Shown here: positions 1 through 17,409 of the stretch, in pieces
Numbering within the stretch: the stretch's first letter is position 1
Layout: each line of letters begins with the position of its first letter
DNA from: Rhodophyticola sp.
GTDB taxonomy: Bacteria > Pseudomonadota > Alphaproteobacteria > Rhodobacterales > Rhodobacteraceae
Direction of reading: 5' to 3'
Assembly (NCBI GenBank): GCA_028279315.1
Contig: JANQNZ010000288.1
Coordinates: forward strand, 1-40,100
DNA length: 40,100 nucleotides
Program-made: the position numbers and the translations under genes
Notes under the pieces: generated by a model
Database searches by the model: none
What the model was told of the DNA's origin: nothing
What the model saw: the letters and a program-made list of their open reading frames with translations, nothing else

Positions 1-251
1 CCAACCAACTCGGTCCCTTCGGTCACATGCAGCATCGGGTAAGGCGTCATCTGCACCACACCGGTCAGCGTCTGACGCCCGAAATCGAAGCGGAACTGGC
101 CCGGGCCGGGATCGTCTTGGGTGCTGCTGACGCCCCAACTGAAGAGTGCGAAGACCCAGACCAGGACGGCAGCGACCAGAAGCAGGAAGGCACGCTGACC
201 CTTGGGCGCAGGCAGATAGCCGACGAAGAAAGGGCGGTTGGGATCGGGCAT
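1..251 (-). CDS. Partial CDS (runs off the window edge): putative membrane-anchored protein, N-term MPDPNRPFFVGYLPAPKGQRAFLLLVAAVLVWVFALFSWGV...
   Basis: Manual reverse-strand translation from ATG at 251 is open to the window edge; one clear TM segment; lies 22 nt downstream of the next operon gene. Confidence 0.7.
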   Translation of the reverse strand, partial: MPDPNRPFFVGYLPAPKGQRAFLLLVAAVLVWVFALFSWGVSSTQDDPGPGQFRFDFGRQTLTGVVQMTPYPMLHVTEGTELV

Positions 252-273
252 GTGAGCTGCTCCTTTCGTCAGG

Positions 274-1320
274 TTAAGCCGGGACCGGCTCGACATAGGT
301 GCCGGGCGGGTTTGCCTCGCTGCGGACAAAGACGGCGCCATCGACAAGCTTGAGGTCGTAAGTCGGCACCTTTTCGGTAAACGGTGCGGGCGAGCGGCCG
401 GTGGTGACGTCATATTGAAACCCGTGCCAGGGGCAGGTGACCAGACAATCGATGATCCGGCCTTCGCCCAAGGGGCCGTTTTGGTGGGCACAGGCGTTGG
501 AGATGGCTGAGAGCTTTCCGTCCTGCCGGAAGACGGCGACCCGCTCGCCACTGGCCAAAATGCCGATATGGCCAAAGCCTTCACGCACATCGTCGGCCTG
601 GCAGACCTGCTCCCACCCGGGCTCGCCCGCCTCTGCCGCGGCATCCCCGCCGCCGCCGCGTTCTTTCAAGGCAACCGCCACATGGAGCAGGACAACCACG
701 CCCGCCGCCGCACCGAAACTGGCGATCATCACCGGCGATTGCGCGTCTTGCAAAACCCCAAGCGCCACATGGCCGACCAAAGCGGCATAAGCTGGGTAGA
801 CCAGGAAATGCAGCGCTTTCCAGACGCGCGGCGTCAGGAATTTCAGCCAGAAATCATGGCTGGTCAGCGCCATCACCCCCATGACCAGCAGCGCAAACAG
901 CCCTAGCCATTCAAACGGGAAGCCCCGGAGCCGCGTCACGGACGTGTTGGAGGACAAAAGCGCCTCATAGGTGTTGATCGGCGTGAAGGAGAAATACCAG
1001 TCCAACACAAAAAACGCATGGGTGAGCGCGATGAAAAACGCCATCACGCCGAAATGCCGCCGGTTATAGAGAAGCGGCAGGAAGCGCGTGTCTAACCGCG
1101 CCAAAGGGCCAATCATCAGGATGATGGTCAACATGAAGAAGGCGCAGGCGCCAAAGGCGCGGGCATTGCGGATTTGCGGGTTGATCGCCCGGTTGTGGTT
1201 CAGGACATCGGGCGCGATGAAGATGAAGATCCACAGGAAAAGCGCCACCGCAACCACCATGATCGCGTCATAGACCCACTTATTCGGGTTCCATTGGACG
1301 GGAATGTATTTGACGCTCAT
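274..1320 (-). CDS. Ferric-reductase-like transmembrane domain protein fused to C-terminal Rieske [2Fe-2S] domain
   Basis: Start MSVKYIPVQW at 1320; multiple TM helices; Rieske motif CAHQNGPLGEG...CPWHGFQYDVTTG near the C terminus. Confidence 0.85.
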   Translation of the reverse strand: MSVKYIPVQWNPNKWVYDAIMVVAVALFLWIFIFIAPDVLNHNRAINPQIRNARAFGACAFFMLTIILMIGPLARLDTRFLPLLYNRRHFGVMAFFIALTHAFFVLDWYFSFTPINTYEALLSSNTSVTRLRGFPFEWLGLFALLVMGVMALTSHDFWLKFLTPRVWKALHFLVYPAYAALVGHVALGVLQDAQSPVMIASFGAAAGVVVLLHVAVALKERGGGGDAAAEAGEPGWEQVCQADDVREGFGHIGILASGERVAVFRQDGKLSAISNACAHQNGPLGEGRIIDCLVTCPWHGFQYDVTTGRSPAPFTEKVPTYDLKLVDGAVFVRSEANPPGTYVEPVPA

Positions 1321-1694
1321 TCCGAGACCTCCTGAGGTGGGGAAAGGAGGACCGGCGCGGTCAGATCCGATTGGCTTTGCCGCGCCAGCATCGCGGCGAT
1401 GAAGATCAGCGGGACCGCCACGGCCATCACCATCCAAGCGCGCCCGTGAAAGCGCCGCTGCGGGCGGTGGCGGAGGGGCCAGGCATCGCGCCCGGTCTCC
1501 AACAGCCACCAGCGCCAGAGGACAATGGGCCAGATCAGGATCACACCCGGCGCCACAAGAGGGCGGAAGACATAAGCCCCGCGGGCGTCCTCATCGATGC
1601 GTCCAACGCCGATGGTCAGGAACACCACCGCAACCGCGACGCCGATCCAGACCCAAATTCCGGCCAATTGCACCAAAAGCGCGGCAAGTGTCAT
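1317..1694 (-). CDS. Small membrane protein (about 3 TM segments), unknown function
   Basis: ORF overlaps both neighbours by 4 nt (ATGA-type coupling); hydrophobic segments. Confidence 0.75.
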   Translation of the reverse strand: MTLAALLVQLAGIWVWIGVAVAVVFLTIGVGRIDEDARGAYVFRPLVAPGVILIWPIVLWRWWLLETGRDAWPLRHRPQRRFHGRAWMVMAVAVPLIFIAAMLARQSQSDLTAPVLLSPPQEVSE

Positions 1695-3301
1695 TGCACC
1701 CCCCCGTACTCAATACCGGAGAGGTCCGCCATTTCGCGTTTCCAGGTGGTTAGATCGGTGGCCGAGAATTTTGACAGATGGTCATGGCCGCAGGCGCGCG
1801 CCATCACGGTCATCAGATGGGTGCTGGCCTCAAAGAAATTGGCCAGGCGCTCTGCGGATTTCTCCACCACCAGACGGCTGACCAGATGCGGTTTCTGGCT
1901 CGCGATCCCTACGGGGCAATTATTGGTGTGGCAGGCGCGCATGGCGATGCAGCCGATGGCCTGCATCGCGGCGTTTGAAACCGCAATGGCGTCCGCCCCA
2001 AGCGCCATGGCCTTCACGAAATCCGCCGGTTTGCGCAAGCCCCCGGTGATCACCAGCGAGACATCCCGGCGCTCCCGCCGGTCCAGATGTCGCCGGGCAC
2101 GGGCCAGCGCCGGGATGGTGGGGACGGAGATATTGTCGCGGAAGATGATCGGCGCCGCGCCGGTGCCGCCGCCGCGCCCGTCGAGGATGATGTAGTCGAC
2201 GCCCACCTCCAGTGCCGCGTCGATATCATGCTCGATATGCTGCGCCGAAAGCTTATAGCCGATGGGGATGCCGCCGGTCCGGTCCCGCACCTCATCGGCG
2301 AAACTTTTGATATCAGAGGGGTTCGTCCATTCCGGGAAGCGGGGGGGTGAAATCGCGTCTTGGCCCGTCTCCAGCCCCCGGACCTCAGCGATTTTGCCTT
2401 TCACCTTGGCGCCGGGCAGATGCCCGCCGGTGCCGGTTTTGGCGCCCTGACCGCCTTTGAAATGGAAGGCTTGGACGTTCTGAAGCTTGTCCCAATCAAA
2501 CCCAAACCGGGCCGAGGCGAGTTCGTAGAAATAGCGCGAATTGGCCTCTTGCTCCTCCGGCAGCATCCCGCCTTCGCCGGAGCAGATACCGGTGCCGGCC
2601 ATCTCGGCACCCAAAGCCAGGGACACTTTGGCGGGTTCCGAGAGCGCCCCGAAAGACATGTCCGACACAAAAAGCGGGATTTTCAGGTGGAGCGGCTTCT
2701 GGGCGTTGGGGCCGATCACCACATCGGTCCCCACCGCATCTTCATCCAGAAGCGGCGCGCGGTGGAGTTGGGCGGTCAGGATCTGGATATCGTCCCAGGA
2801 CGGCAGCTGATCGCGCGGCACACCCATCGCGTCGACCACGCCGTGATGCCCGGTCTGTTTCAAGCCACTTCTTGCATAAGATTGGATCAGGCCACTATGG
2901 GGCTCCTCCTCCGTCCCGTGGGAGGTGTCGGCGTAAAGGCCCAGATAGGCGTCCCGGTTGAAGGGCTGCGGGTTCTTCTCGGCCCAGGTATTGATCTCAT
3001 CGGCATCGACACAGATGTCATCGCCTTCAACCCAAGAGGCGAATTTCGGCAGCGCCTCGTCATTGGCGTATTCCGAGACGCCCGTGTCCAGCCGGTAGTC
3101 CCAATCATGCACCCCGCAGATCAGGTTCTTGCCGCGCACAAACCCATCGGCCATCAGCGCGCCGCGATGCAGGCAGCGGCCATAGAAGACCGAGATTTCG
3201 TCGTCAAAGCGGACAACAACCAGATCGACCTCCCCCACCAGGGCATAAGCCGGGGACCGGTCGGGCAGATCCGAGAGTTTGGCGACAACGGTTTTGGTCA
3301 T
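1691..3301 (-). CDS. Rieske [2Fe-2S] domain fused to glutamate-synthase-like FMN-binding domain
   Basis: N-term CLHRGALMADG...CGVHDWDYRLDTG Rieske motif; C-term GltB-like segments (GGQGAKTGTGGHLPGAKV, ILDGRGGGTGAAP) and 3Fe-4S-type cysteines CIAMRACHTNNCPVGIA. Confidence 0.9.
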   Translation of the reverse strand: MTKTVVAKLSDLPDRSPAYALVGEVDLVVVRFDDEISVFYGRCLHRGALMADGFVRGKNLICGVHDWDYRLDTGVSEYANDEALPKFASWVEGDDICVDADEINTWAEKNPQPFNRDAYLGLYADTSHGTEEEPHSGLIQSYARSGLKQTGHHGVVDAMGVPRDQLPSWDDIQILTAQLHRAPLLDEDAVGTDVVIGPNAQKPLHLKIPLFVSDMSFGALSEPAKVSLALGAEMAGTGICSGEGGMLPEEQEANSRYFYELASARFGFDWDKLQNVQAFHFKGGQGAKTGTGGHLPGAKVKGKIAEVRGLETGQDAISPPRFPEWTNPSDIKSFADEVRDRTGGIPIGYKLSAQHIEHDIDAALEVGVDYIILDGRGGGTGAAPIIFRDNISVPTIPALARARRHLDRRERRDVSLVITGGLRKPADFVKAMALGADAIAVSNAAMQAIGCIAMRACHTNNCPVGIASQKPHLVSRLVVEKSAERLANFFEASTHLMTVMARACGHDHLSKFSATDLTTWKREMADLSGIEYGGVQ

Positions 3302-3315
3302 AAATCCCTCATGTC

Positions 3316-4530
3316 TTAAGTCAGCCCTTTTATGGGCTTTGCTTGTCGTCCGATCCGGTTGGCCGCGGGGGAAGCGGTGATGCCGTGAAGAACGGCACTG
3401 ATCACCACGGTGGTGAAGGCGATCAGAAGGATTTCTTCGCCATGGGTCAGCCGGTCAAAATCCCGCAGGACCAGAAGCGCAAAGAGTGCTGTGGCCAGGC
3501 CCCGGGGCCCGAACCAGCCCAGGAACAGCTTCTCACCCGGCGCGGTGCCGGTTCCGGTCAGGGACAGCCAAATCGCCAGCGGCCGGGCGATGAAAAGCGA
3601 GGCCAGGATCAGGATCAGCCAAACCGGCTGGATATGAGCGAGCCCGTCGAAACTCAGTGTCAGGCCAACGGTAAGGAAGGCGAGGAGGACCAGAATTTGC
3701 CCCTCCGTCTCCATGAATTCCAGGATGAAGGGGTGGCGTTCCCCCATCACTGCGCCAAAGCAGAGGCCTGCGGCGAAGGCGGCCAGAAAGCCGTTTCCGC
3801 CCAATTCCGTAGCCAGAAGATAGGCCAGACCGGCAAGCGCCAGGACGCCGATCCCCTCAAACAGGTCATTGCTGAGCCCGGTCGCCAATGCCCGATGCAT
3901 CAACCATCCGCCGCCCGCGCCGACCGCGCAGCCGACCAAAGCCCCGAGGCCCACCTGTTGGCTTGTGAACACCACCCAACTGGACTGCACCCCGTCATGA
4001 ATGCCCGCCACGGCGAGGCACCCAAAGAACAGGATGGCGGGCAGGGCCAAGCCGTCATTGATGCCGCTTTCCATGGTGAGCGCCGTGCGGATGCGCTCCG
4101 GCACCTTGGGATTCGTCACCACGGCTTGGCCGAGCGCCGCATCCGTGGGCGCCAGGATGGCGGCCAGAAGGGCGACCTCCCAAACCGGCCAATCGGGCAG
4201 AAGCGGGCGGGCGATGAGATAGCCGATCAGGATCATCAGCGGCATACCCAAGACCAGCATCCGCGCCGCCTGTCCCACGCCCGGGCGGTCGCCGCGCTTC
4301 AGCCGCATCATGGCGGCGTCCGCGAAAAGGACGACAACCAAGGTGAACTCCGCCAGAAGATGCAGGAATTCTTCGGCCTGATGCATGTCCGGCGCGTCGA
4401 AGAACAGCGTCGCGCAGAGGCCCATGGCCAGAAAGACCATGGGCGGGGTGATAATCCCCTCGGCCAGGCGGCGTGCCACAAGCGCATAGCCAAAGGTCAG
4501 CGCGGCCAGGGTGAGGAGCGACAGGTCCAT
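3316..4530 (-). CDS. Cation:proton antiporter, NhaP/CPA1-like
   Basis: Polytopic membrane protein with ILAPTDAALGQAVV and GNGFLAAFAAGLCFG motifs typical of Na+/H+ antiporters. Confidence 0.85.
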   Translation of the reverse strand: MDLSLLTLAALTFGYALVARRLAEGIITPPMVFLAMGLCATLFFDAPDMHQAEEFLHLLAEFTLVVVLFADAAMMRLKRGDRPGVGQAARMLVLGMPLMILIGYLIARPLLPDWPVWEVALLAAILAPTDAALGQAVVTNPKVPERIRTALTMESGINDGLALPAILFFGCLAVAGIHDGVQSSWVVFTSQQVGLGALVGCAVGAGGGWLMHRALATGLSNDLFEGIGVLALAGLAYLLATELGGNGFLAAFAAGLCFGAVMGERHPFILEFMETEGQILVLLAFLTVGLTLSFDGLAHIQPVWLILILASLFIARPLAIWLSLTGTGTAPGEKLFLGWFGPRGLATALFALLVLRDFDRLTHGEEILLIAFTTVVISAVLHGITASPAANRIGRQAKPIKGLT

Positions 4531-4561
4531 CAGCCGCAGCCCCCTATGGCCGGGCCACGCA

Positions 4562-6544
4562 TCAGATCAGCTCCATATCCGTCATGATTTCGACAAGCGC
4601 GGGGCCGTCATGGGCCAGGGCTTCAGCCATCGCCTCATGGATCTTGTCGGCCTCGGTCACCTTCACCCCATGGCCGCCGCAAAGCCGCGCGAACGTGGCG
4701 AAAGAGGGGTTCACGAGGTCGGTTTGCCAGACAGGGAATTCGCCCGCCCGCTGCTCTTTGGTGATTTTGCCAAGCTGGCCGTTGTTCAGAAGGATATGGG
4801 TGATGTTCATCCCGTATTTGACGGCGGTCGTGAACTCCATCGCGTATTGGCCAAACCCGCCATCGCCCGAGATCGAGATCACCTTGCGCCCGGCATAATC
4901 CGGCTCTTCCTGGGTGGCGGCCCAGGCCCCGATGGCCGCAGGCAGCGCAAAGCCGATGGAGCCGAGATAGCCCGACATCAGCACCCGCTGGCCTTTGGTC
5001 TCAAAGTACCGCCCGAAGGAATAGGTGTTGTTGCCCACATCAACGGCGATGACTGCGTCCTCGGGGCAAAGCTCGGTCAGGGCTTTGAACACCGCCGCCG
5101 CGCCCAGGCCTTTGCCCGCGTCATCGGTCAGGCGGCTTTCCTTCTCCGCTCGCCAGATGCGCCAGCGGTCCGCGATCTCGGCAGCTTGGTCTTCGGCATC
5201 GGTGGGGCGTGTCAGCCCCTCTTGGACCGCGTCGCAGAACGCCCCGATCTCGCCCCAGATCGGCAGGGCCACGGGGTGGAATTTGCCAAGCTGCGCGCGG
5301 TCGAAATCGACCTGGATGATCGGTTTGCTGGGTTCGATCCCGGTATGGTTCGAGAACGAGGAGCCAAGCGTCAGGATCAGATCGCATTCATTCATGAACC
5401 AGGACGCAATCGGCGTGCCGGAGCGGCCGAGCACACCGGCGGCATAAGGGTGGCTGTCGGGGATCAGGCCCTTGCCTTTGAAGGTGGTCACCGCGGGTGC
5501 TTTCAGGGCCTCCACCAGGGCCATCACCTTATCCATGCTCTCCACTGCGCCGTGGCCGATGACGATGAAAGGCCGTTTGGCTTCGGCAATCATTTCGCGG
5601 GCGCGGGCCAACTCGCTTTCGGCAGGCGTCACAACCGGTCGCGCCAGCCGCCCTTCCGGGCTTTGCGCGGGCGCGTCCGAGGGAACGGTTTGCACATCAT
5701 CGGGGAAGACCAGATGGGCTACGTCGCGCTCAATGATCGCCGATTTGCAGGCCAGAGAGGCCAGTTCTGCGTGGTTTGAGGTGGTCAGAACCGGCTGCGA
5801 GAACTCCGCGACGGGCGCGAAAGCGGCCAGAAGGTCGATGTCCTGAAACGCGCCGGGCCCGAAAACCTGGGTCTGCACCTGGCCAGTCAGGGCCAGCACT
5901 GGCGCGCGGTCGACCTTGGCATCCCAGAGCCCCGTGATCAGGTTTGTGGCACCAGGGCCCGCGATGGTCAGGCAGGCCGCGGGTCGCCCGGTGAGCTTGC
6001 CATAACCTGAGGCTGCAAAGGCCGCCGCGCCTTCATGACGGATGCCGATATAGCGCATCGTGCCATCCGCCGTCTGCCGCCGGATCGCGTCGGCCAGGCC
6101 CAGATTGGAATGCCCCACCATGCCGAAGACCGCCTTAATGCCCCAGGCCGAAAAGGTCTCAGCCATCACATCGGTGACGCTGCGGGTATGGGGCGGCTCT
6201 GGCGCGAGGCCGACAAAGACCTCGCCATCCTCCAGCTTGACCGGAAAAAGCTCTTGGCCCGTGTCTTCATGCCCACCCGGGGGTGCGCCGGTCAGCGGGT
6301 CGAAATCCCAGCCATGCCAGGGGCAGCGGATCCAGCATTGCCCCTCGACACCTTTCTCAATGGAGCCTTCGCCAAGCGGCCCGCCCTGATGCGGGCAGCG
6401 GTTGTCCATCGCCGCCCATTGGCCGTCGAAATGCGACAGGCAGATCGAGGTGGTGCGCGCCGTCACCGTCATCACCCGGCCTTCGGGCAATTGATCGGCA
6501 TCCGCGACCTTGATCCAGTCCAATCCCTCAGTGGTGTCCGTCAT
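4562..6544 (-). CDS. Rieske [2Fe-2S] domain fused to thiamine-pyrophosphate enzyme (acetolactate synthase/pyruvate oxidase-like)
   Basis: N-term CPHQGGPLGEG...CPWHGWDFDPLTG Rieske motif; then RHEGAAAFAASGYGKLTG and a TPP motif GDGGFGQYAMEF...ILLNN. Confidence 0.92.
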   Translation of the reverse strand: MTDTTEGLDWIKVADADQLPEGRVMTVTARTTSICLSHFDGQWAAMDNRCPHQGGPLGEGSIEKGVEGQCWIRCPWHGWDFDPLTGAPPGGHEDTGQELFPVKLEDGEVFVGLAPEPPHTRSVTDVMAETFSAWGIKAVFGMVGHSNLGLADAIRRQTADGTMRYIGIRHEGAAAFAASGYGKLTGRPAACLTIAGPGATNLITGLWDAKVDRAPVLALTGQVQTQVFGPGAFQDIDLLAAFAPVAEFSQPVLTTSNHAELASLACKSAIIERDVAHLVFPDDVQTVPSDAPAQSPEGRLARPVVTPAESELARAREMIAEAKRPFIVIGHGAVESMDKVMALVEALKAPAVTTFKGKGLIPDSHPYAAGVLGRSGTPIASWFMNECDLILTLGSSFSNHTGIEPSKPIIQVDFDRAQLGKFHPVALPIWGEIGAFCDAVQEGLTRPTDAEDQAAEIADRWRIWRAEKESRLTDDAGKGLGAAAVFKALTELCPEDAVIAVDVGNNTYSFGRYFETKGQRVLMSGYLGSIGFALPAAIGAWAATQEEPDYAGRKVISISGDGGFGQYAMEFTTAVKYGMNITHILLNNGQLGKITKEQRAGEFPVWQTDLVNPSFATFARLCGGHGVKVTEADKIHEAMAEALAHDGPALVEIMTDMELI

Positions 6545-6862: not shown

Positions 6863-8113
6863 TTAGGAAAACGCCTGAAGCCCGGTTTGGGCGCGGCCCA
6901 GGATCAGCGCGTGGACATCGTGCGTACCTTCATAGGTGTTCACGGTTTCCAGGTTCTGGGCGTGGCGGATGACATGGTATTCGGCCATAATCCCGTTGCC
7001 GCCATGCATGTCGCGGGCTTGGCGCGCGATGTCGAGCGCCTTGCCGCAATTGTTGCGCTTCATCAGGCTGATGATCTCGGGCGCGCAGCTGCCGTCGTCC
7101 AGCATCCGGCCCGCGCGGAGGGCGCCTTGCAGGCCAAGCGCGATCTCGGTCTGCATATCGGCGAGCTTTTTCTGGAACAGTTGCGTCTGCGCCAAAGGCC
7201 GCCCGAACTGCACCCGGTCCAGCCCGTATTGCCGCGACCGGTGCCAGCAGTCTTCGGCGGCCCCCATGGCGCCCCAGGCAATCCCGAACCGCGCACGGTT
7301 GAGGCAGCCGAAGGGGCCCTTCAAGCCTTCCACACCGGGCAGAAGCGCGTCTTCGCCGACTTCGACATCCTTCATCACGATCTCGCCCGTGACCGAGGCG
7401 CGCAAGGACAGCTTGCCGCCGATCTTAGGCGCGCTCAGGCCCGCCATGCCCTTTTCCAAGATGAAGCCGCGGATCTTGCCGCCATGGGCCTCGGATTTCG
7501 CCCAGACCACGAAGACATCGGCGATGGGGCTGTTCGAGATCCACATCTTGGCGCCGTTCAGGACATAGCCGCCATCCGTCTTCTTGGCGGTGGTCTTCAT
7601 GCCGCCCGGGTCGCTGCCCGCATCGGGCTCGGTCAGGCCGAAGCAGCCGATCAGCGTGCCGGCGGCCAGACCGGGGAGGTATTTCTGCTTCTGCTCTTCG
7701 GTGCCGTAAGCGTGGATCGGGTACATCACGAGGGAGGATTGGACCGACATCATCGAGCGATACCCGCTGTCGACGCGCTCAACCTCCCGCGCGACGAGGC
7801 CATAGCTGACATAGCCCGCGCCAAGCCCGCCATAGGCCTCGGGGATGGTGACGCCCAGAAGCCCCATTTCCCCCATTTCGGCAAAGACTTCGGGTTCGAT
7901 GACCTCATCGAGATAAGCCTCGGACACGCGCGGGAAGAGCTTGTCTTGCGCATAAGCCCGCGCGCTCTCGGCGATCATCCGCTCCTCTTCGCTCAACTGA
8001 TCGGTCAGGTGGAACGGATCGGCCCAATCGAACGGGGCAAGCGAAGGCCCGGTATGGCGTGTTTGTCCGTCTGGCATGGTCTCTCCTCCCCCGCGCGGCT
8101 TGGTCGTGGCCAT
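6863..8113 (-). CDS. gcdH: Acyl-CoA dehydrogenase, probable glutaryl-CoA dehydrogenase
   Basis: Strong ACAD family sequence incl. [21 protein letters not shown] and [42 protein letters not shown]. Confidence 0.85.
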
Positions 8114-8298: not shown

Positions 8299-9822
8299 TC
8301 AATCCCCGTCGGCAACCCCTTCGGCCCGGTCTCGGGCACGGCGCGCGCGATAGCTTGGCAACAGCACCAGAAGCAGCGCGATCACCAGAAGCGCCAAGGT
8401 CATCGGGCGCTCCCAGATGAAGCTGACGCCTTCATAAAGCTGCATCGCGCGGGAGAAGTTGTTCTCCAGAAGCGGCCCCAGAATGAAACCGATCAGAAGC
8501 GGCGCCAGGGGATAATCGGCAAAGCGGAAGATGGTCGCCGTGACCCCAAGGCCGACCAGAAGCAGAAGCTCGGTCGCGTTGTTCTGCCCGATATAGGCCC
8601 CCATCAGCGTGAAGAAGAGGATGAAGGGGATCAGGTAGTTCCGCGGCACCGCCAGCACTTTGGCGATATAGGGGATGAGCGGCAGGTTCAGGATCAGAAG
8701 CACCAGATTGCCCAGATACATCGAGATGATGACGGCCCAGAAGATCTGCGGCTCATCCACCATCAGGCGGGGGCCGGGGCTGACATTGAGCGCAATCAAC
8801 GCGCCCAACAGGATCGCCGTGGTGCCGGAGCCTGGGATGCCAAGCGTCAGAAGCGGCACGAAGGACCCGGTTGAGGCGGCGTTATTGGCGCTTTCGGGTG
8901 CGGCCACGCCTTTGATGGCGCCTTTGCCGAATTGCTCCTGCTCTTCCTTGGGCGCGATATTGCGTTCGACCGCATAGCCCAGGAAGGACGCGATGGTCGC
9001 CCCCGCACCGGGCAGAACGCCGATCAGGAAGCCTTGGATCGATTGCCGACCGATCACGGGGGCGATGGATTTCGCCTCTTCCCTTGTGATCCGAAGTTCT
9101 TTGATCTCGCCCTGCTCGCCACCCTCAGCGGTTTTGGAGCGGTTCGGGTCGAGCACCAGATAGATCGCCTCAGGCAACGCAAACATGGCCATGGCAAGCG
9201 TGATGAAGCCGATGCCCGATTGCAGGTCCATGATCCCCATGGTGAAGCGCGGCGCGTTGAACAGCACACCTTCGCCAACCGTGGCCAGCATCAGGCCCAG
9301 AAGCGTCATCAGAAGCGCCTTGCTGACCTGGCCCGTGCCCGCGAAGGCCGCGATGGCCGAGAGGCCCACAACCATCAGCGCAAAATACTCTGCCGAGTGG
9401 AAGAGGAGCGCGACCGAGGCGAGCGCCGGCGCGAAGATCATCAACAAGACCGCGCCGATGGTGCCGCCCGCAAAAGAGGAGATCGCGGCCACCGTCAGCG
9501 CCTTGCCCGCCTTGCCCTGTCGGGTCAGCGGGTAGCCGTCGAAACTGGTCGCCACGGTGGACGCGACCCCCGGCGCGTTGATCAGGATCGAGGAGGTGGA
9601 GCCGCCAAAGACCGCCCCGTAATAGACGCCTGCCAGCAGGATCAGGGCCGCCGATGGATCGCCGATGGTGATCGCCACCGGGATCATGATGGCGATGATC
9701 GACATCGGCCCGAGGCCCGGCAGCATTCCGATAAAGGTGCCGATTAGACAGCCGCCGATGACCATCAGGATGTTGGTGAGTGAGAAGGCCGTCGTCAGGC
9801 CGATCATGAATCCTTCGAGCAT
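8299..9822 (-). CDS. tctA: Tripartite tricarboxylate transporter large permease TctA
   Basis: ~507-aa polytopic protein with GMLPGLGPMSIIAIMIPVA and GIPGSGTTAILLGAL motifs; start placed at MLEGFMIG. Confidence 0.92.
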   Translation of the reverse strand: MLEGFMIGLTTAFSLTNILMVIGGCLIGTFIGMLPGLGPMSIIAIMIPVAITIGDPSAALILLAGVYYGAVFGGSTSSILINAPGVASTVATSFDGYPLTRQGKAGKALTVAAISSFAGGTIGAVLLMIFAPALASVALLFHSAEYFALMVVGLSAIAAFAGTGQVSKALLMTLLGLMLATVGEGVLFNAPRFTMGIMDLQSGIGFITLAMAMFALPEAIYLVLDPNRSKTAEGGEQGEIKELRITREEAKSIAPVIGRQSIQGFLIGVLPGAGATIASFLGYAVERNIAPKEEQEQFGKGAIKGVAAPESANNAASTGSFVPLLTLGIPGSGTTAILLGALIALNVSPGPRLMVDEPQIFWAVIISMYLGNLVLLILNLPLIPYIAKVLAVPRNYLIPFILFFTLMGAYIGQNNATELLLLVGLGVTATIFRFADYPLAPLLIGFILGPLLENNFSRAMQLYEGVSFIWERPMTLALLVIALLLVLLPSYRARRARDRAEGVADGD

Positions 9823-9826
9823 CGGC

Positions 9827-10324
9827 TTATCCTCCCACCAAGAAGCCTGGCAGCGGGCGCAGGAAGATCCCCAACACCCCATCGACCAGATACCAGATGA
9901 AGCCCGCCGCCAGGATCGACACGATGGCCATCATCAGAAACCGCCGCTCCCCCAGGATGAAACTGCCGACGGTCAGAAACAGAAAGGTCGAGGCGAGAAA
10001 CCCCAAAGGCCTAAGCAGGAGGGCATAGGCGATCATCAACCCGATCAGCATCAGCGCCTGGCCGACCTTGTATTCATGCAGCCGCGCCAGATTGATATCG
10101 GCGGCTTCGGTTTTCTGCGGGCCTTTCTCCAACCCCAGAATGATGATCAGCGTCATCAGAATGGCGCCCACAACCAGAACCTTGGGGAAGCTCGACGGCC
10201 AGATCGGCGCGCGCCGCATGATTGGGGGTAAGGCATCGTCCATGGTGAAGAAAGCTGCGTAGCCATAGGCCAGGCATATGAGCAGGACCACAATTGCAAT
10301 CCAACGATCTAGGGCCACCGTCAC
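9827..10324 (-). CDS. tctB: Tripartite tricarboxylate transporter small permease TctB
   Basis: Small 4-TM protein between tctA and tctC; GTG start at 10324. Confidence 0.88.
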   Translation of the reverse strand: MTVALDRWIAIVVLLICLAYGYAAFFTMDDALPPIMRRAPIWPSSFPKVLVVGAILMTLIIILGLEKGPQKTEAADINLARLHEYKVGQALMLIGLMIAYALLLRPLGFLASTFLFLTVGSFILGERRFLMMAIVSILAAGFIWYLVDGVLGIFLRPLPGFLVGG

Positions 10325-10353
10325 ACCCTCCCCTCGTGTCTTTATAATTGATC

Positions 10354-10379
10354 GGTCCGGGCCTCAGGCGGCCCGGACC
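10354..10379. other. Perfect 10-bp stem hairpin between tctC and tctB (possible mRNA stability/attenuation element)
   Basis: ggtccgggcc-tcaggc-ggcccggacc. Confidence 0.7.
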
Positions 10380-10402
10380 TGTGTCATGTTACAGCAGGGC
10401 GC

Positions 10403-11389
10403 TTAGAGGAAGCCCAGCTCACGCATGAGATCGCCGATCACCTGTTCCTGCTCTTCCAGGAAGGCGCGGAACTCATCGCCGGAATTGTGGATGTTGACCC
10501 AGCCGTTCCGGGCGCGGACTGCTTCCCACTCGTCGGTCTCATACATCGCTTCCAGCGCGCCCTGATAGGCCTCAAGCCGATCCGCTGGCAGGCCCGGGGC
10601 GGCGAAGAAGCCGCGCCAGTTGACGAAAACGGTCTCGTTGCCCTGCTCCATCATGGTCGGCGCGTCGGGGAAGGTATCCACCCGCTCTTCGGCGGTCACG
10701 CCGATGATCCGCACCTCGCCTGCACGGGCCAGTTCGACGGCCTCTGAGAACCCAGTGGAAATCGCCTGCACCTCACCCGACAGAAGCCCGGCCATGGCCG
10801 CCGCGCCTGCGTCATAGGGCACATAGCTCAACTCAATCGGGTCGCCGCCGCCGGCCTGAATGATCATCGCAGCCACCAGGTGGTCCATGCCGCCCGGCAC
10901 CGAGCCGCCGCCGATGGCGACACTGCTGGCATCGGCGTTGAACGCGCCAACCAGGTCGTCGAGGCCTTCGATATCGCTGTCGGCTGCGACCACAAGCGAC
11001 GCGTAGTCACCGATCGTGCCCGCCACCAAGGTCAGATCGCGGAAGTTCTGCGGGAAGACGCCGGTCAGCGAGCGGATCACGATGGGGGTGGAGTTCACCA
11101 TCAGCGTGCCGTGGTTCGATTCGGCATTCTCGATAATATACCCAATCGCCCGGCCGCCACCGCCGCCGGACATATTCTCATAAGACGCGCTGCCGACAAT
11201 GCCCGAGCCGGTCAGGGCCTCGCCCGTGCCGCGCGCGGTGCCGTCCCAACCGCCGCCGGCGCCGCCGGGGATCAGGAAGTGGATGCTGTCGACCATCTGA
11301 TGGCCATCGGCAAAAGCCGGTGAGCCGAAGCTGAGTGCCGCAGCCGTCACGGCCACCGCCGCCCGGCGGGTCAGTTTGAAAAGCGTCAT
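10403..11389 (-). CDS. tctC: Tripartite tricarboxylate transporter substrate-binding protein TctC
   Basis: Signal peptide; FLIPGGAGGGWDGTARGTGEAL and following Bug/TctC-like sequence. Confidence 0.92.
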   Translation of the reverse strand: MTLFKLTRRAAVAVTAAALSFGSPAFADGHQMVDSIHFLIPGGAGGGWDGTARGTGEALTGSGIVGSASYENMSGGGGGRAIGYIIENAESNHGTLMVNSTPIVIRSLTGVFPQNFRDLTLVAGTIGDYASLVVAADSDIEGLDDLVGAFNADASSVAIGGGSVPGGMDHLVAAMIIQAGGGDPIELSYVPYDAGAAAMAGLLSGEVQAISTGFSEAVELARAGEVRIIGVTAEERVDTFPDAPTMMEQGNETVFVNWRGFFAAPGLPADRLEAYQGALEAMYETDEWEAVRARNGWVNIHNSGDEFRAFLEEQEQVIGDLMRELGFL

Positions 11390-11440
11390 TTGGATCCTCC
11401 CTTATGTGACGTTTTCTTGTCTTTTTATGCGCTTACCCCC

Positions 11441-11941
11441 TCACGGACCAAGCGGTTCTTTTGCGACCAGTACACCGTCTTCGTCGCAATAAATGCAATG
11501 TCCCGGTTCAAAAAGGACATTACCAAAGGCCACTGGAACGTCCAGCGCGCCGATCCCGGTCTTTGAGCTGCGCACAGGCGTCGTGCCCAAGGCTTTGATT
11601 CCAATGTCAATTTCTGTAAGGCGCGCGGCATCGCGGATCGCCCCGTTGATGATGATCCCGGCCCAGCCATTGTCGCGCATCAGGCCCGCATTGATATCAC
11701 CAAGCAGCGCGCTTCGCATCGAGCCGCCGCCGTCAAGGACAATCACCGCTCCCTCGCCAGGGGTCGAATAGAGGGCTTCTTGTAGAAGTTTTGTGTCTTC
11801 CATCGTGACGCAAGTGCGGATCCGGCCCGCAAATTGGCGCCGCCCGCCGAAATCCTGAAAGGGCAGTATCACTTGGCGGACGGCGTCGGGGTGGGCGTCG
11901 TTCAGATCGGTCGTGGGGTGGGGGGTGAGGGCCTGGCTCAT
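11441..11941 (-). CDS. RraA-family protein (HMG/CHA aldolase-like)
   Basis: GSMRSALLGDINAGLMRDNGWAGIIINGAIRDAARLTEIDIGIKALGTTPVRS is RraA-fold signature. Confidence 0.88.
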   Translation of the reverse strand: MSQALTPHPTTDLNDAHPDAVRQVILPFQDFGGRRQFAGRIRTCVTMEDTKLLQEALYSTPGEGAVIVLDGGGSMRSALLGDINAGLMRDNGWAGIIINGAIRDAARLTEIDIGIKALGTTPVRSSKTGIGALDVPVAFGNVLFEPGHCIYCDEDGVLVAKEPLGP

Positions 11942-13086
11942 GCGGCGTCCTCCTCCAATCTCGCAGGATAGAGCACCGCGCCTTCCATGATCCGGCGTTG
12001 GGTACGGAAGGTGGTGGCTGAGATCGCGACGGGGCCTGAGGCGGTGGTCTCAACTTTGGCCTCAACCGGCAGGATGCCTGAGGGGTTGCCGATGCGAAGC
12101 GTCCCCGTCGCCCCGTCGCCCTCTGCCACCAGAGAGCCGGGGATATTTGCGGCCACGGCCACACACATGCCGCCGGTGAGCGTGATGGCCCGGTGGAAAT
12201 TGCCCATGGAGATCAGTCGGACGCTCACGTCATGAGTCTCCGGGCGATAGCTCCGCCCATCCAGCGCGGTGAACGGTGCAGGCGGGGCGATGATGGCGAC
12301 CTTTGGGTTGGAGAGCGGCACGGCCTCGGGCGTCTCGGCCAAACCCATCGCGACCCCACCCGCCCGGCGGATTGCGTCGAGTGTCGTCATCAGGTCCCTG
12401 TCGGCATCGAGGTCTTGCGGCGCCTCGTTTGCGGTTCGGTTCAGGTCCTTTGCCCGGACAAAAACCACCGGGTTCGCGGCGTCGATCAGGGACGCCTCGA
12501 TCTCGCCCACACCGTCGACCTGCAACCGATCGACAGCCTGCCCGGTCGGCAGCAGCTGGCCCGTCGCCGCACCGCCGGGCTCCAGAAAATCCAACGCCAC
12601 TTTCGCGCCGGTGCCGCCCACGCCTGGGATTTCGAAATCGCCCTCTTCCACGGCTTGGCCGCCTTCGACCGCAAACCGCGCGTGGTAGATTTGGCGTGTA
12701 TTGGTGTTGTGAATGCGGACCAGCGCCTCGGGGGCCTCCGCCGTCACCAGCCCTTCGGCCAAGGCAAAGGGCCCGACAGCCGAGGACATATTCCCGCAGG
12801 TGGAGCCGTAATCGGCCACCGGGTCGCCGACTGCGATCTGCACGAAGGTATAGTCCACATCCGCCTCTGGATGGGTCGACGGCTCCACAATCACGACCTT
12901 GGAAACCGATGACAACCCGCCCCCCATCCCGTCCAGCTGACGCCCGTAAGGGTCCGGGCTGCCTAAGACATGCAGGAAGATCCGATCTCGCGCAGCGCGA
13001 TCTTTGGGCAGATCGGCCCCGTTCAGCATCACCGCTTTCGAGGTCCCGCCGCGATAAAATGCCGCCCGGAGACGCCGGGGGTGCAT
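11938..13086 (-). CDS. prpF: PrpF-family isomerase/tautomerase (2-methylaconitate isomerase or 4-oxalomesaconate tautomerase-like)
   Basis: FYRGGTSKAVML, DPYGRQLDGMGGGLSSVSKVVIV, YGSTCGNMSSAVGPFA motifs; start/stop overlaps with both neighbours. Confidence 0.85.
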   Translation of the reverse strand: MHPRRLRAAFYRGGTSKAVMLNGADLPKDRAARDRIFLHVLGSPDPYGRQLDGMGGGLSSVSKVVIVEPSTHPEADVDYTFVQIAVGDPVADYGSTCGNMSSAVGPFALAEGLVTAEAPEALVRIHNTNTRQIYHARFAVEGGQAVEEGDFEIPGVGGTGAKVALDFLEPGGAATGQLLPTGQAVDRLQVDGVGEIEASLIDAANPVVFVRAKDLNRTANEAPQDLDADRDLMTTLDAIRRAGGVAMGLAETPEAVPLSNPKVAIIAPPAPFTALDGRSYRPETHDVSVRLISMGNFHRAITLTGGMCVAVAANIPGSLVAEGDGATGTLRIGNPSGILPVEAKVETTASGPVAISATTFRTQRRIMEGAVLYPARLEEDAA

Positions 13087-15668
13087 CAGGCGGCCTCCTG
13101 CTTGAGGAACGCCCGGAACGCGCGGGGCAGAAGCCCGCCTTCGGCAAAGGTCTGGCGTTCGGCGTCGTTGTAGAGGCGGAGGTCAAGCGGCAGGGTCTCC
13201 GTGTCGCCATCCGTGCGGTGGATGGTCAGGGTCGCCCCCGTCAAATCCTCCGCAAGGGCGATATCGAAGGTTTCGGAGCCGTCCAGCCCTAGGGTTTTGC
13301 GCGTCACGCCTTCGGGGAAGCACAAAGGGGCAATGCCCATATTCACAAGGTTGGAGCGATGGATACGCTCGAAGCTCTCGGCGATCACGGCGCGGATGCC
13401 GGCCAGCCAAGGCGCCTTGGCTGCCGTGTCGCGGGACGACCCGCAGCCATATTCCTTACCGCCGATCACAACCAGACCCTGGCTGCGTGCGAGATAGGTT
13501 TCGATGGCTTTGAAGATCGAGGTCACGGTGTCCTCCGGCTGCACCTTGGTCCAAGACCCTTCTTTCTCCGGCACCATCTCATTCCGGAGCCGGTAATTCG
13601 CGAAGGTGGAGCGGATCACCACATCGGAGCACCCACGCCTTGTCCCGAAAGAGTTGAAGTCGTGCGGCTCCACCCCTTGGGCGATCAGGAACTGCCCGGC
13701 CTCGCTGTCACGCGTGATGGTGCCGGAGGGGGAGATGTGATCGGTCGTCACCGAATCCCCCAGGATGACAAGCGGGCGGAGGCCTTTAAGCGGTGCCCGC
13801 CCGGTGTTATCGGCGGTGATGGCCGCCACAAAAGGCGGGAAACTGACATAGGTGGACGGGACCCAATCATAAGCGCCGCTGTCGACCTGCATCTCATTCC
13901 AATGGGCGTTTACGTCCCCGATAGCCTTGTAATTGCTGAGGAAATCCTCAGGCGTGAGGTGGGCCTCGATGATCGCCTGCACCTCCTCTTCCTGGGGCCA
14001 GAGATCGGATAGGAAGACCGGATTGCCGTTGCTGCCCGCCCCCAAAGCCTCAGTCGTGATGTCTTTCAGGATCGTCCCCATCAACGCATAAGCCACGACC
14101 AACGGTGGCGAGGCCAGCATGTTGCGGGAGGCCAGCGGATGGATACGGCCCGCGAAATTGCGGTTGCCGGAGAGGACCGCGACGCCTTTGATGTCATGGG
14201 TCTTAATCGTGGCCTCATGTTCCGGGCGAAGCGGGCCCGACATCCCGTTGCAGGTGGAACAGGAAAACGCCGCCACCTCAAACCCAAGGGCATCAAGCGC
14301 GGTTTGCAGCCCGCTTTCGGCCAAATACCGCGCCACAACGCGAGAGCCGGGGGCGAGGGAGGTTTTCACATGGGGTTTCACGGTCAACCCCTTAGCGACC
14401 GCATTCTGCGCGATCAGCCCGGCCAGAACCATGTTGCGCGGGTTCGCTGTGTTGGTGCAGCTTGTGACCGCCGCGATGATCACATCGCCATCGCCGAGAT
14501 CGTGATCGGTGCCTTCGACCGGCACCCGGCGCGCGGCCTCCCCCTCTGTAGCCAGCGTATCGGTCGCCTTGGCCAGATCAATCCGCTGTTCGGGCCGTGC
14601 AGGCCCCGCGACGGAGCGGCCAATGGCGCTGAGGTCAAGCGGGATCACCGCGTCATATTCGATGCGCGTATCGACATCCTCGGCCCACATCTGTTGCGCG
14701 CGGGCATAAGCCTCGGCCCGGGTCGTGTGATCCGCGTTGCGACCGGTTTCGCGCAAATACCGGATGGTGTTGGCATCGACAGGGCAGAAGACGCAGGTAG
14801 AGCCGTATTCGGGTGACATATTCGCGATGGTCGCGCGGTCGGCCACGGTGAGGTGGCGATAGCTTGGCCCGAACAGTTCGACGAACTTGTCGACCACGCC
14901 GAAAGCGCGCAGCTTTTCGGCCACGACCAGCGCGATATCTGTGGCGGTGATGTCGTGGGAAGGGGCGCCGGTGACCTCCAGCCCGATGACGTGCGGCACA
15001 TTCACCGGCGTCGCCTCGCCAAACATAATCGCTTCGCCTTCCAGCCCGCCAATGCCCCAGCCGAGAACACCAAGGGCGTTGATCATGGTGGTGTGGCTGT
15101 CGGTGCCCAGATTGGTGTCAGGGATCAGAAGAGTGGGGTCTTGGGCGTCGGGCAGGACGGTATGGCCCAGGTATTCCAGGTTCACCTGATGCATGATGCC
15201 GCCGCCCGGGGGGATCACACGCAGATTGTCAAACCGGGCTTCGCAGGCTTTGAGGAAGGCGAAACGCTCGCGGTTCACCTCAAACTCGCGGTCCATGTTC
15301 TTGGTGAGCGCGAATTTCTCGGCCCAATGGTTGATGGTCATGGAGTGGTCGATGACGAGGTCGACGGGCAGGCTCATATCCACCTGGGATGGGTCTCCGC
15401 CCTCGGCGGCGAGGGCCGAGCGCATGGCCATCATGTCGACCAGAAGCGGCAGGCCGAGCATATCTTGTAGAAGAAGCCGCGCAGGCCGGAACGGCACCGC
15501 GGCGCCACTCCGCGCGGCCACATCGGCGATGGCTGCCCCATCCGATTGTCGCGCGGCGTTTTCTGCGAGGACACGCAGGGAATAGGGGAGGGTGGAAAGC
15601 TGCCGACCAAGCGGCCCGGCATAATTCGTGGCGTCATAGGCAGTTCCGGCTATGCGATAGCTCTCCAT
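13086..15668 (-). CDS. Aconitase/2-methylisocitrate dehydratase-family protein (AcnA/AcnD-like)
   Basis: LGTDSHTTMINALGVLGWGIGGLEGEA, TSCTNTANPRNMVLAGL, CSTCNGMSGPL; start placed at MESYRIAG (15668). Confidence 0.88.
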   Translation of the reverse strand: MESYRIAGTAYDATNYAGPLGRQLSTLPYSLRVLAENAARQSDGAAIADVAARSGAAVPFRPARLLLQDMLGLPLLVDMMAMRSALAAEGGDPSQVDMSLPVDLVIDHSMTINHWAEKFALTKNMDREFEVNRERFAFLKACEARFDNLRVIPPGGGIMHQVNLEYLGHTVLPDAQDPTLLIPDTNLGTDSHTTMINALGVLGWGIGGLEGEAIMFGEATPVNVPHVIGLEVTGAPSHDITATDIALVVAEKLRAFGVVDKFVELFGPSYRHLTVADRATIANMSPEYGSTCVFCPVDANTIRYLRETGRNADHTTRAEAYARAQQMWAEDVDTRIEYDAVIPLDLSAIGRSVAGPARPEQRIDLAKATDTLATEGEAARRVPVEGTDHDLGDGDVIIAAVTSCTNTANPRNMVLAGLIAQNAVAKGLTVKPHVKTSLAPGSRVVARYLAESGLQTALDALGFEVAAFSCSTCNGMSGPLRPEHEATIKTHDIKGVAVLSGNRNFAGRIHPLASRNMLASPPLVVAYALMGTILKDITTEALGAGSNGNPVFLSDLWPQEEEVQAIIEAHLTPEDFLSNYKAIGDVNAHWNEMQVDSGAYDWVPSTYVSFPPFVAAITADNTGRAPLKGLRPLVILGDSVTTDHISPSGTITRDSEAGQFLIAQGVEPHDFNSFGTRRGCSDVVIRSTFANYRLRNEMVPEKEGSWTKVQPEDTVTSIFKAIETYLARSQGLVVIGGKEYGCGSSRDTAAKAPWLAGIRAVIAESFERIHRSNLVNMGIAPLCFPEGVTRKTLGLDGSETFDIALAEDLTGATLTIHRTDGDTETLPLDLRLYNDAERQTFAEGGLLPRAFRAFLKQEAA

Positions 15669-15757
15669 CGCGGCATCCCCTCTTTCGCAATGCCCTTCTG
15701 CTAGACAATGCCCGCCTCTCCACACAAGATGCGCGCGACGCCGTTTCACCAGAGGGA

Positions 15758-16429
15758 ATGCGCATGGCCACACGTACCGAATCCGTCGAACGGGCGATGT
15801 CGATCCTCTCTGCCTTCTCAACGCAGCAACCGACCATGAGCCTGGCGGAACTGGCCGAAGAAACCGGCTTGCATAAAAGCACGATCCTCAGGCTCACGAA
15901 CTCGCTGTCGATCTACGGGTTCATCCAGCGGGATGCGGAGGGCCGGTTCAGCGTCGGGCCAAGCGTCTGGCGCCTGGCCTTGATCTTCCGGCGCGATTTC
16001 ACCCGGCGCGAACATGTGGCCCCGGCGCTGCGGATACTCGCGGAAGCCACGGGTGAGACCGCGTCTTTCTATGTGCGGGCGGGCAATGAGAGGGTTTGTT
16101 TATACAGAGAAAACTCCCCGAACCTTATGCGGTATCATGTGGAGGAGGGGATGCGGCTGAAACTCTCCACCGGCGCCTCCGGTCTGGTTCTGCGCTATTT
16201 CTCGGGTGAGGATGTGGGGGATTTGAGCGTCTTCAACGCAAATGGCACCGCGATGTCGGTCGGGCAGACAAACCCCAACATCTCCTCGGTGGCCACGCCG
16301 GTCTTTTCAGCGGCGGGGGAGTTGAAAGGAGCGTTGACGGTCTCAGGCCTTGTGGATCGCTTCGACGCGGCGGCGCGGGCGCAAGTTGTGCCGCTTCTGG
16401 AAAGCCTGGCACGGTCGCTGTCGGAGTAG
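15758..16429 (+). CDS. IclR-family transcriptional regulator
   Basis: HTH TMSLAELAEETGLHKSTILRLTNSL plus IclR effector domain; divergent from the aconitase/Tct operon. Confidence 0.9.
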   Translation: MRMATRTESVERAMSILSAFSTQQPTMSLAELAEETGLHKSTILRLTNSLSIYGFIQRDAEGRFSVGPSVWRLALIFRRDFTRREHVAPALRILAEATGETASFYVRAGNERVCLYRENSPNLMRYHVEEGMRLKLSTGASGLVLRYFSGEDVGDLSVFNANGTAMSVGQTNPNISSVATPVFSAAGELKGALTVSGLVDRFDAAARAQVVPLLESLARSLSE

Positions 16430-16533
16430 CGGCGCGTTCTCTCTGATGAAACACCGGGCGCCTGTCTTGTTGGACTTTGGTCCCAGGCGTAGAGAGAAGT
16501 AACAAAGACCTGATGACCTAGCCGGAGCTGCAC

Positions 16534-17409
16534 ATGCTCACCCATGAGATCAACAAAGCCTTCCGCGCCCGCCTGGCCCAAGGTGGCGCGGTCCTGATGC
16601 CCGGCGCGGCCAATGCCTTGGCGGCACGAGTGATTGATGGGTTAGGGTTCGAGGCGCTCTACATCTCTGGCGCGGGGTTGACCAATACTTATCTGGGGAT
16701 GCCCGATCTGGGCTTTATCTCACTGCCCGAAATCGCGCAGCACACCGCCGCGATCCGCAACACCACCGATCTACCGATTGTCGTGGATGCCGATACCGGG
16801 TTCGGCAACGCGCTGAACGTCCATCACACGGTGCGGATGTTGGAGCGCGCGGGCGCCAGTGCGATCCAGCTGGAGGATCAGGTAAACCCCAAGCGCTGCG
16901 GGCATTTTGCGGGCAAAGACGTGGTTGATCTGGCTGAGGCGCGGTCCCGGATCAAAGCGGCGGTGGATGCCCGGACCGATCCGAATTTCCAGATCGTGGC
17001 CCGGACCGATGCGCGGGCGGCCCAGGGTCTGAATGCCGCGCTCGACCGTGCGGCGGCTTTTATCGAGGATGGTGCCGATATCACCTTTGTTGAAGCGCCG
17101 CAGAGCGTGGACGAAATCCGCGCGATTCCCGACCGGCTGTCGGGGACACCGCAGCTGATCAACCTGGTGGTTGGCGGCAAGACCCCGATTGTCGATCTTG
17201 CGGAGCTTGATCAGATGGGCTTTGGCCTGGTGCTTTATGCGAATGTCGCGTTGCAGGGGGCGTTGAAAGGCATGTCGGATGCGTTGAGCCTGTTGAAGCA
17301 GGATGGACGGATGGATGAATCCGGGCCGGTGGCGAGTTTCGAGCTTCGGCAGTCCTCGGTCCTGAAAGACCATTACGACGCGCTGGAGGCACGCTACGCG
17401 GAGGACTGA
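16534..17409 (+). CDS. Isocitrate lyase/PEP mutase-family C-C lyase (methylisocitrate lyase/2,3-dimethylmalate lyase-like)
   Basis: VVDADTGFGNALNVHHTVRMLERAGASAIQLEDQVNPKRCGHFAGK with KRCGH catalytic motif. Confidence 0.88.
   Translation: MLTHEINKAFRARLAQGGAVLMPGAANALAARVIDGLGFEALYISGAGLTNTYLGMPDLGFISLPEIAQHTAAIRNTTDLPIVVDADTGFGNALNVHHTVRMLERAGASAIQLEDQVNPKRCGHFAGKDVVDLAEARSRIKAAVDARTDPNFQIVARTDARAAQGLNAALDRAAAFIEDGADITFVEAPQSVDEIRAIPDRLSGTPQLINLVVGGKTPIVDLAELDQMGFGLVLYANVALQGALKGMSDALSLLKQDGRMDESGPVASFELRQSSVLKDHYDALEARYAED

Follow-up and report, generated by a model that had tools for sequence, protein, structure and literature searches.

The first 6.5 kb of a draft contig from Rhodophyticola sp. 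(Rhodobacteraceae; GenBank assembly GCA_028279315.1, contig JANQNZ010000288.1, here C298) hold an operon in which three unrelated proteins each carry a Rieske domain, i.e. a His-ligated [2Fe-2S] module. The window, by which we mean the whole stretch of 40,100 nucleotides that was analyzed, begins at base 1 of this contig, and the draft genome amounts to 3.3 Mb. As read from the window sequence, the operon comprises six co-directional genes on the minus strand (6544-3), separated in the order of the operon by gaps of 31 and 14 bp, two 4-bp ATGA overlaps and a last gap of 22 bp:

4562..6544, minus strand: R-TPP, 660 aa; Rieske domain (C50/H52, C74/H77) plus pyruvate-oxidase-type thiamine pyrophosphate (TPP) enzyme, from Pfam, PDB match and AlphaFold 2 (AF2)/Foldseek.
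3316..4530, minus strand: CPA1/NhaP-type cation:proton antiporter, 404 aa; Na_H_Exchanger, 130 bits.
1691..3301, minus strand: R-GltS, 536 aa; N-terminal Rieske domain (C43/H45, C62/H65) plus FMN/[3Fe-4S] synthase domain, from Pfam and GltS alignments.
1317..1694, minus strand: SM1, 125 aa; small membrane protein with about three transmembrane (TM) segments, overlapping R-GltS by 4 bp.
274..1320, minus strand: FRR, 348 aa; six-TM diheme protein of ferric-reductase type with C-terminal Rieske domain, overlapping SM1 by 4 bp.
3..251, minus strand: SM2, truncated by the contig end; 254 aa in relatives, with a full-length homologue at L033:5156-5920.

An earlier note, made from the letters of the sequence alone, had described six tightly spaced genes here, and this layout stands, except that the last gene (SM2, 3-251) is cut off because the window begins at the first base of the contig. 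In a genome of the same genus (G003, locus L033) the order is R-TPP, antiporter, R-GltS, SM1, FRR, SM2 (254 aa) and SM3 (84 aa), and the intact operon therefore has seven genes instead of six.

The three Rieske fusions proposed in the same note, i.e. to a TPP enzyme, a glutamate-synthase-like enzyme and a ferric-reductase-like membrane protein, were all recovered by Pfam, with scores of 60.3 bits for R-TPP, 45.7 for R-GltS and 61.0 for FRR, far above the cut-off of 20.3 bits that was used. The companion domains are TPP_enzyme_N/M/C on R-TPP, Glu_synthase on R-GltS and Ferric_reduct on FRR. A search of the whole 3.3 Mb genome gave seven Rieske domains, three of which lie within the 6.5 kb of the operon. 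In each of the three families (92, 54-55 and 43 homologues) the CxH and CxxH ligands never vary where a residue is present, so these are no chance motif matches. Rieske domains from different families are 19-31% identical, against 56-69% within a family. As this is about as distant as they are from the Rieske domains of dioxygenases (22-28%), an origin of the three copies by one duplication was rejected. Separate acquisition is most likely, and suggests that one kind of cluster was selected for on three different proteins.

Conservation and co-occurrence of the gene set

By scanning an R-TPP alignment against 84,980 species genomes, we confirmed at least 571 relatives, the best 80 of which were fetched (60-75% identity over the matched length). 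Their hosts belong to Alpha- and Gammaproteobacteria, Acidobacteriota, Gemmatimonadota, Planctomycetota, Myxococcota, Verrucomicrobiota, Rhodothermales, Campylobacterota and Nitrospinota, together with one Thermoleophilia bin. Most are marine or saline/hypersaline, a picture that is biased because the fetched set was ranked by identity. Full-length homologues with 53-60% identity were furthermore found on haloarchaeal plasmids and on one Mycobacteroides abscessus plasmid. In Halorarius, R-TPP is followed by the antiporter, with R-GltS 4 kb further on, while Salinirubellus and Halorubrum plasmids carry both R-TPP and R-GltS. Over the fetched loci and the relative loci together, there are 60 with R-GltS, 44 with FRR, 43 each with SM1 and with SM2, 29 with the antiporter and 19 with SM3; gene orders and strands are shuffled across phyla. 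The same seven genes with R-TPP at the opposite end are found in G060, G312 and several roseobacter-type loci.

Co-occurrence in whole genomes was assessed in samples that include some incomplete genomes. Out of 289 alphaproteobacterial genomes, 13 had R-TPP, 8 R-GltS, 15 FRR and 7 all three together. The Fisher p values are 4e-10, 3e-7 and 2e-9, and do not exceed 3e-5 once genomes of the same genus are merged, deeper phylogeny not being corrected for. All three genes lie on different contigs in G183 and G287, and are spread over approximately 65 kb in G069 and G203. In a second sample, of 329 Pseudomonadota, R-GltS was found in 5/5 genomes with R-TPP and in 6/324 without it. Outside Alphaproteobacteria, 22 out of 26 R-TPP genomes had R-GltS, about half of them outside the fetched R-TPP locus, and all of the nine with FRR also had R-GltS. 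R-TPP is usually partnered by R-GltS, and outside Alphaproteobacteria almost obligately so. These counts identify R-TPP and R-GltS as the core of the set, FRR-SM1-SM2(-SM3) as a frequent membrane partner and the antiporter as a frequent neighbor. Mantel correlations of the R-TPP, R-GltS and FRR distances (0.83, 0.85 and 0.70) were given little weight, because any co-inherited genes would correlate. The earlier note had itself raised a lack of co-conservation as the point on which it might fall; what we found is co-occurrence that extends beyond adjacency.

Structure of the encoded proteins

The best PDB match of the TPP part of R-TPP is PoxB, followed by Corynebacterium glutamicum PQO and acetohydroxyacid synthase (AHAS), and the top Foldseek matches are likewise PoxB and PQO (AF2 model with pTM 0.84). 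Identity to PoxB is 27-28% in the fold alignment. R-TPP aligns with PoxB residues 5-528 of 572 and itself ends at this point, so the membrane-binding tail of PoxB has no counterpart. The N, M and C domains of TPP enzymes, the catalytic Glu and the TPP motif are all present, with Glu171, Phe233-Gln234 and the Asp of the GDG motif invariant across 92 sequences. Opposite Glu597, PoxB has a Glu and AHAS has a Gln; with this Glu kept, and PoxB and PQO ranking first, acetolactate synthase is the less likely assignment. Three invariant residues are specific to the family: His145, where PoxB has Asp and AHAS has Gly; Lys593, where PoxB has Phe; and Lys596. From general knowledge of the enzyme class, we take the His145 position to be adjacent to the TPP aminopyrimidine. 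DUF5996 proteins (PF19459), and others whose Pfam resemblance to them is weak or nil, flank R-TPP repeatedly and are possibly accessory (L117:13287-14147, L082:9141-10004, L087:12011-12889, L099:10364-11107).

The core of R-GltS aligns with the synthase domain of GltS (FMN fold). The [3Fe-4S] cysteines (C451, C457 and C462), the Gln and Lys of the QGAK motif and a downstream Arg are invariant, and the GEGGQ motif of GltS appears as GTGGH, in which the two replaced residues are an invariant Thr and His. A glutaminase (class II amidotransferase) domain is absent from R-GltS, as judged by Pfam, and from the recurrent neighbors. Ten relatives have two CDGSH domains in place of the Rieske domain, an architecture published as 'type 5 CISD' (PMC3174974); a CDGSH-GltS fusion is known also from PMC5859297. 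In a tree of the cores these forms and a single domain-less protein fall together in one group, which is nested among the Rieske forms (SH-aLRT 81-94, below the starred level). This exchange of one His-ligated [2Fe-2S] module for another is the strongest sequence argument for an N-terminal domain that carries electrons. Sampled Pseudomonadota genomes whose sole match was the CDGSH-GltS form had no R-TPP. At one locus (L041:6532-10729), CDGSH-GltS is flanked by hemerythrin and by glutathione S-transferase (GST)-family proteins resembling glutathionyl-hydroquinone reductases, a possible lead to quinone chemistry. Another variant, a Pseudoalteromonas GltS-core protein (L149:5887-8028), is without an N-terminal [2Fe-2S] domain, and by eye its C-terminal extension resembles a formylglycine-generating/sulfatase-modifying domain.

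FRR has six predicted TM segments with both termini inside, and this topology prediction places its Rieske domain (ligands C277/H279 and C296/H299) in the cytosol. Two stacked heme sites are made up of His89/His171 and His101/His184, ligands that are invariant in 43 homologues. SM1 accompanies FRR in nearly all loci and has no family match in Pfam or NCBIfam. SM2 consists of one TM helix and an outer region of two OB-like barrels (AF2 model, pLDDT 87), with a motif C-x15-C-x3-C/His of three cysteines and one His that is invariant in 42 sequences. It belongs to no Pfam family, its Cys/His motif matches no known family, Foldseek gave no match with E < 0.001 against the PDB, and PDB sequence matches were implausible ones only. 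Counting SM1, the truncated SM2 and the SM3 of the same-genus genome, the expectation of at least two small membrane proteins is borne out. So is that of an NhaP-type antiporter: this fourth protein matches Na_H_Exchanger over its full length (130 bits in Pfam). Its best NCBIfam match is a potassium/proton antiporter, below the cut-off of that family. Of 65 well-flanked R-TPP loci, 22 have a member of this antiporter family, nearly always on the same strand.

Two other configurations involve the membrane genes. In G069 and on Rhizobium plasmids (L138:6881-15856, L150:1704-11074 and L151), FRR-SM1-SM2 is next to a TPP enzyme that has no Rieske domain. These loci, which also hold OpgC, a TPR protein and a CoA transferase, give the membrane complex a second association with a TPP enzyme. 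In G276, a Rieske-FMN_red fusion (NADPH-dependent FMN reductase fold; L130:6257-7384) directly follows FRR; homologues occur in G174 and on a plasmid of Methylocystis (NZ_CP107559, 69%).

Among genes adjoining the operon, SoxBCD/YZ-like genes were found in L038 only, and a general Sox link was rejected. The znu/zur-like genes seen by eye in L033 and L034 differ in arrangement and were treated as chance. An acyl-CoA dehydrogenase gene upstream in the window (6863-8113) falls outside the conserved set and was rejected as an operon member; a promoter/terminator scan upstream of R-TPP found nothing. Further along, at 8299-17409, genes read by eye as TctABC-type uptake, RraA-like, PrpF-like, aconitase-like and isocitrate-lyase-family look like a cluster for tricarboxylate uptake and processing. 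Inside the TctA-like gene of this region (8299-9882, also by eye) lies, in antisense, a match to the Rfam small RNA Ruegeria cis8 (RF02646; 8648-8775, plus strand, 117.9 bits).

Proposed mechanism and its alternatives

We favor, at a probability of about one half, a reading of these genes as a conserved redox module: Rieske domains would connect the soluble flavoenzymes with each other and, in genomes that have FRR, with a membrane cytochrome b. What the sequences themselves show is gene content, co-conservation, conserved cofactor ligands, fold and predicted topology; we further infer FAD binding, electron direction, substrates, partner contacts and a role for the antiporter. R-TPP would be a PoxB/PQO-like enzyme in which a Rieske domain was gained and the C-terminal anchor to membrane/quinone was lost. 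Its probable reaction is the TPP-dependent decarboxylation of a 2-oxo acid, with electrons passing to FAD and on to the Rieske cluster, and this oxidative decarboxylation is the favored electron source. R-GltS would be an FMN/[3Fe-4S] oxidoreductase with its Rieske cluster as electron port, and the soluble enzymes most likely exchange electrons via these clusters. FRR, with SM1, SM2 and SM3, would take up electrons at the cytosolic Rieske domain and move them across two b hemes to the outer face, where the acceptor may be the Cys/His site of SM2 or a quinone, while the antiporter would balance charge or pH. A bolder version, which we regard as tentative and on balance doubtful, holds that unrelated flavoenzymes (FAD/TPP, FMN/[3Fe-4S] and FMN reductase) each separately acquired a Rieske domain as a common plug through which electrons are exchanged. 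Genomes with FRR would add a Rieske-cytochrome b complex dedicated to this exchange, in which SM2 is a new periplasmic subunit with a metal site, and the whole would be an unrecognised respiratory-type system. The protein in G276, by its sequence a further Rieske-flavoenzyme fusion, was counted toward the redox module.

Several points weigh against this module. Both R-GltS and FRR are absent from 6 of the 13 alphaproteobacterial R-TPP genomes, R-GltS occurs without R-TPP in one gammaproteobacterial family (the 6/324 genomes above), and the FRR-SM1-SM2 set also occurs alone in other genomes; the sampled searches scored 3-7 candidates per genome, and some absences may be false. With FRR lacking in 6/13 alphaproteobacterial and 17/26 other R-TPP genomes, it cannot serve as the electron partner throughout. 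R-TPP may act on a substrate other than pyruvate, because the invariant His145 and Lys593 deviate from PoxB, and FAD binding by R-TPP, through a middle domain of FAD type, is suggested by homology. Rieske domains can, moreover, be regulatory or structural too. As for the wiring of two soluble enzymes to a membrane cytochrome that the earlier note had envisaged, the anatomy fits, i.e. a cytosolic Rieske domain on a diheme cytochrome and two soluble Rieske flavoenzymes, but FRR is absent from many genomes with R-TPP and R-GltS. As for the coupling to ion transport in the same note, the antiporter is found at just 22 of the 65 well-flanked loci, and the note's interpretation is supported in part.

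An unlikely alternative is that electrons flow in reverse, from quinol through the FRR hemes to the Rieske domain, and drive a reductive R-GltS reaction, e.g. in quinone or electrophile detoxification; the antiporter would then play the part that it has in Kef-type defence against electrophiles. The K+/H+ antiporter-like neighbor would suit this, as would a K+ channel gene in Halorarius, FMN_red/flavodoxin proteins (in G060 near R-TPP, in M. abscessus next to the antiporter), and the surroundings of the CDGSH-GltS sister form, with GST-family proteins, hemerythrin and a ferric-reductase protein plus SIP flavoprotein. R-TPP is, however, fundamentally an electron source if it is pyruvate oxidase-like, and the neighbors differ from locus to locus. 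We consider it quite improbable that the Rieske domains sense redox state or oxygen and gate their enzymes in this way, without carrying the electrons. On a non-redox TPP enzyme such a domain could presumably only be regulatory or structural, and R-TPP is homologous to both redox and non-redox types, but electron transfer better fits the tandem CDGSH swap on the GltS core and the fusion of Rieske domains to several flavoenzymes and a cytochrome. A role in adaptation to salt, pH or osmotic conditions, in which the enzymes make glutamate or another counter-ion and the antiporter adjusts K+/Na+, agrees with the antiporter adjacency, the GltS fold and the mostly marine or hypersaline hosts of the fetched loci. 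It seems very improbable, however, as the antiporter is found in just a third of loci, and R-GltS has no glutaminase domain and an invariant Thr and His at two GltS-motif positions. Least credible is shared regulation only, i.e. unrelated redox genes that travel together without exchanging electrons: component genes do stand alone in some genomes, but three separate Rieske acquisitions fall within one co-conserved set, and R-TPP and R-GltS co-occur without adjacency over many phyla.

Comparison with known systems

No named system or description for the gene set was found in the open-licence literature, Pfam, NCBIfam or PADLOC, and anti-phage defence was discarded as a candidate, with no PADLOC match. 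The earlier note's view of an undescribed, non-standard system can be kept insofar as that literature holds no pathway or family name for it; the Rieske-ferric-reductase architecture, on the other hand, had been mentioned in passing (PMC3591440). This and the CDGSH-GltS fusion (PMC3174974, PMC5859297) are the only parts already known. With the gene set present in at least ten phyla, archaea included, many genomes carry it under generic names, e.g. 'thiamine pyrophosphate-binding protein', 'glutamate synthase-related protein' and 'hypothetical protein'. If the redox module is real, it would allow 2-oxo acid oxidation that bypasses both the pyruvate dehydrogenase complex and the quinone-linked PoxB, make Rieske domains interchangeable connectors, and give a likely context to Rieske- and CDGSH-linked glutamate-synthase-like enzymes (type 5 CISDs).

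With PoxB (Escherichia coli pyruvate:ubiquinone oxidoreductase) and PQO, R-TPP shares the sequence and fold of the TPP part, the catalytic Glu, the FQ motif and the Glu aligned with Glu597, and differs from them by its N-terminal Rieske domain, the loss of the C-terminal membrane-binding tail, and its own His145 and Lys593. R-GltS has the FMN-type fold, [3Fe-4S] cysteines, GAK Lys and downstream Arg in common with the synthase domain of glutamate synthase (GltB), but lacks the glutaminase domain, adds a Rieske domain and has GTGGH for GEGGQ. With the type 5 CISDs it shares a catalytic core that is approximately 70% identical and an N-terminal His-ligated [2Fe-2S] unit, which in them is a CDGSH pair where R-GltS has Rieske. 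FRR shares the six-TM core and the two heme-His pairs in TM3 and TM5 with the ferric reductase domain superfamily (MsrQ/YedZ, NOX, FRE; PMC3591440). It has a Rieske domain where the long NOX and FRE forms have FAD/NADPH domains, and belongs to a conserved set with SM1, SM2 and often SM3. Lastly, the antiporter is of the same family as the Kef/CvrA-type potassium:proton antiporters, but scores below the curated equivalog cut-offs and shows no ligand-gating domain.

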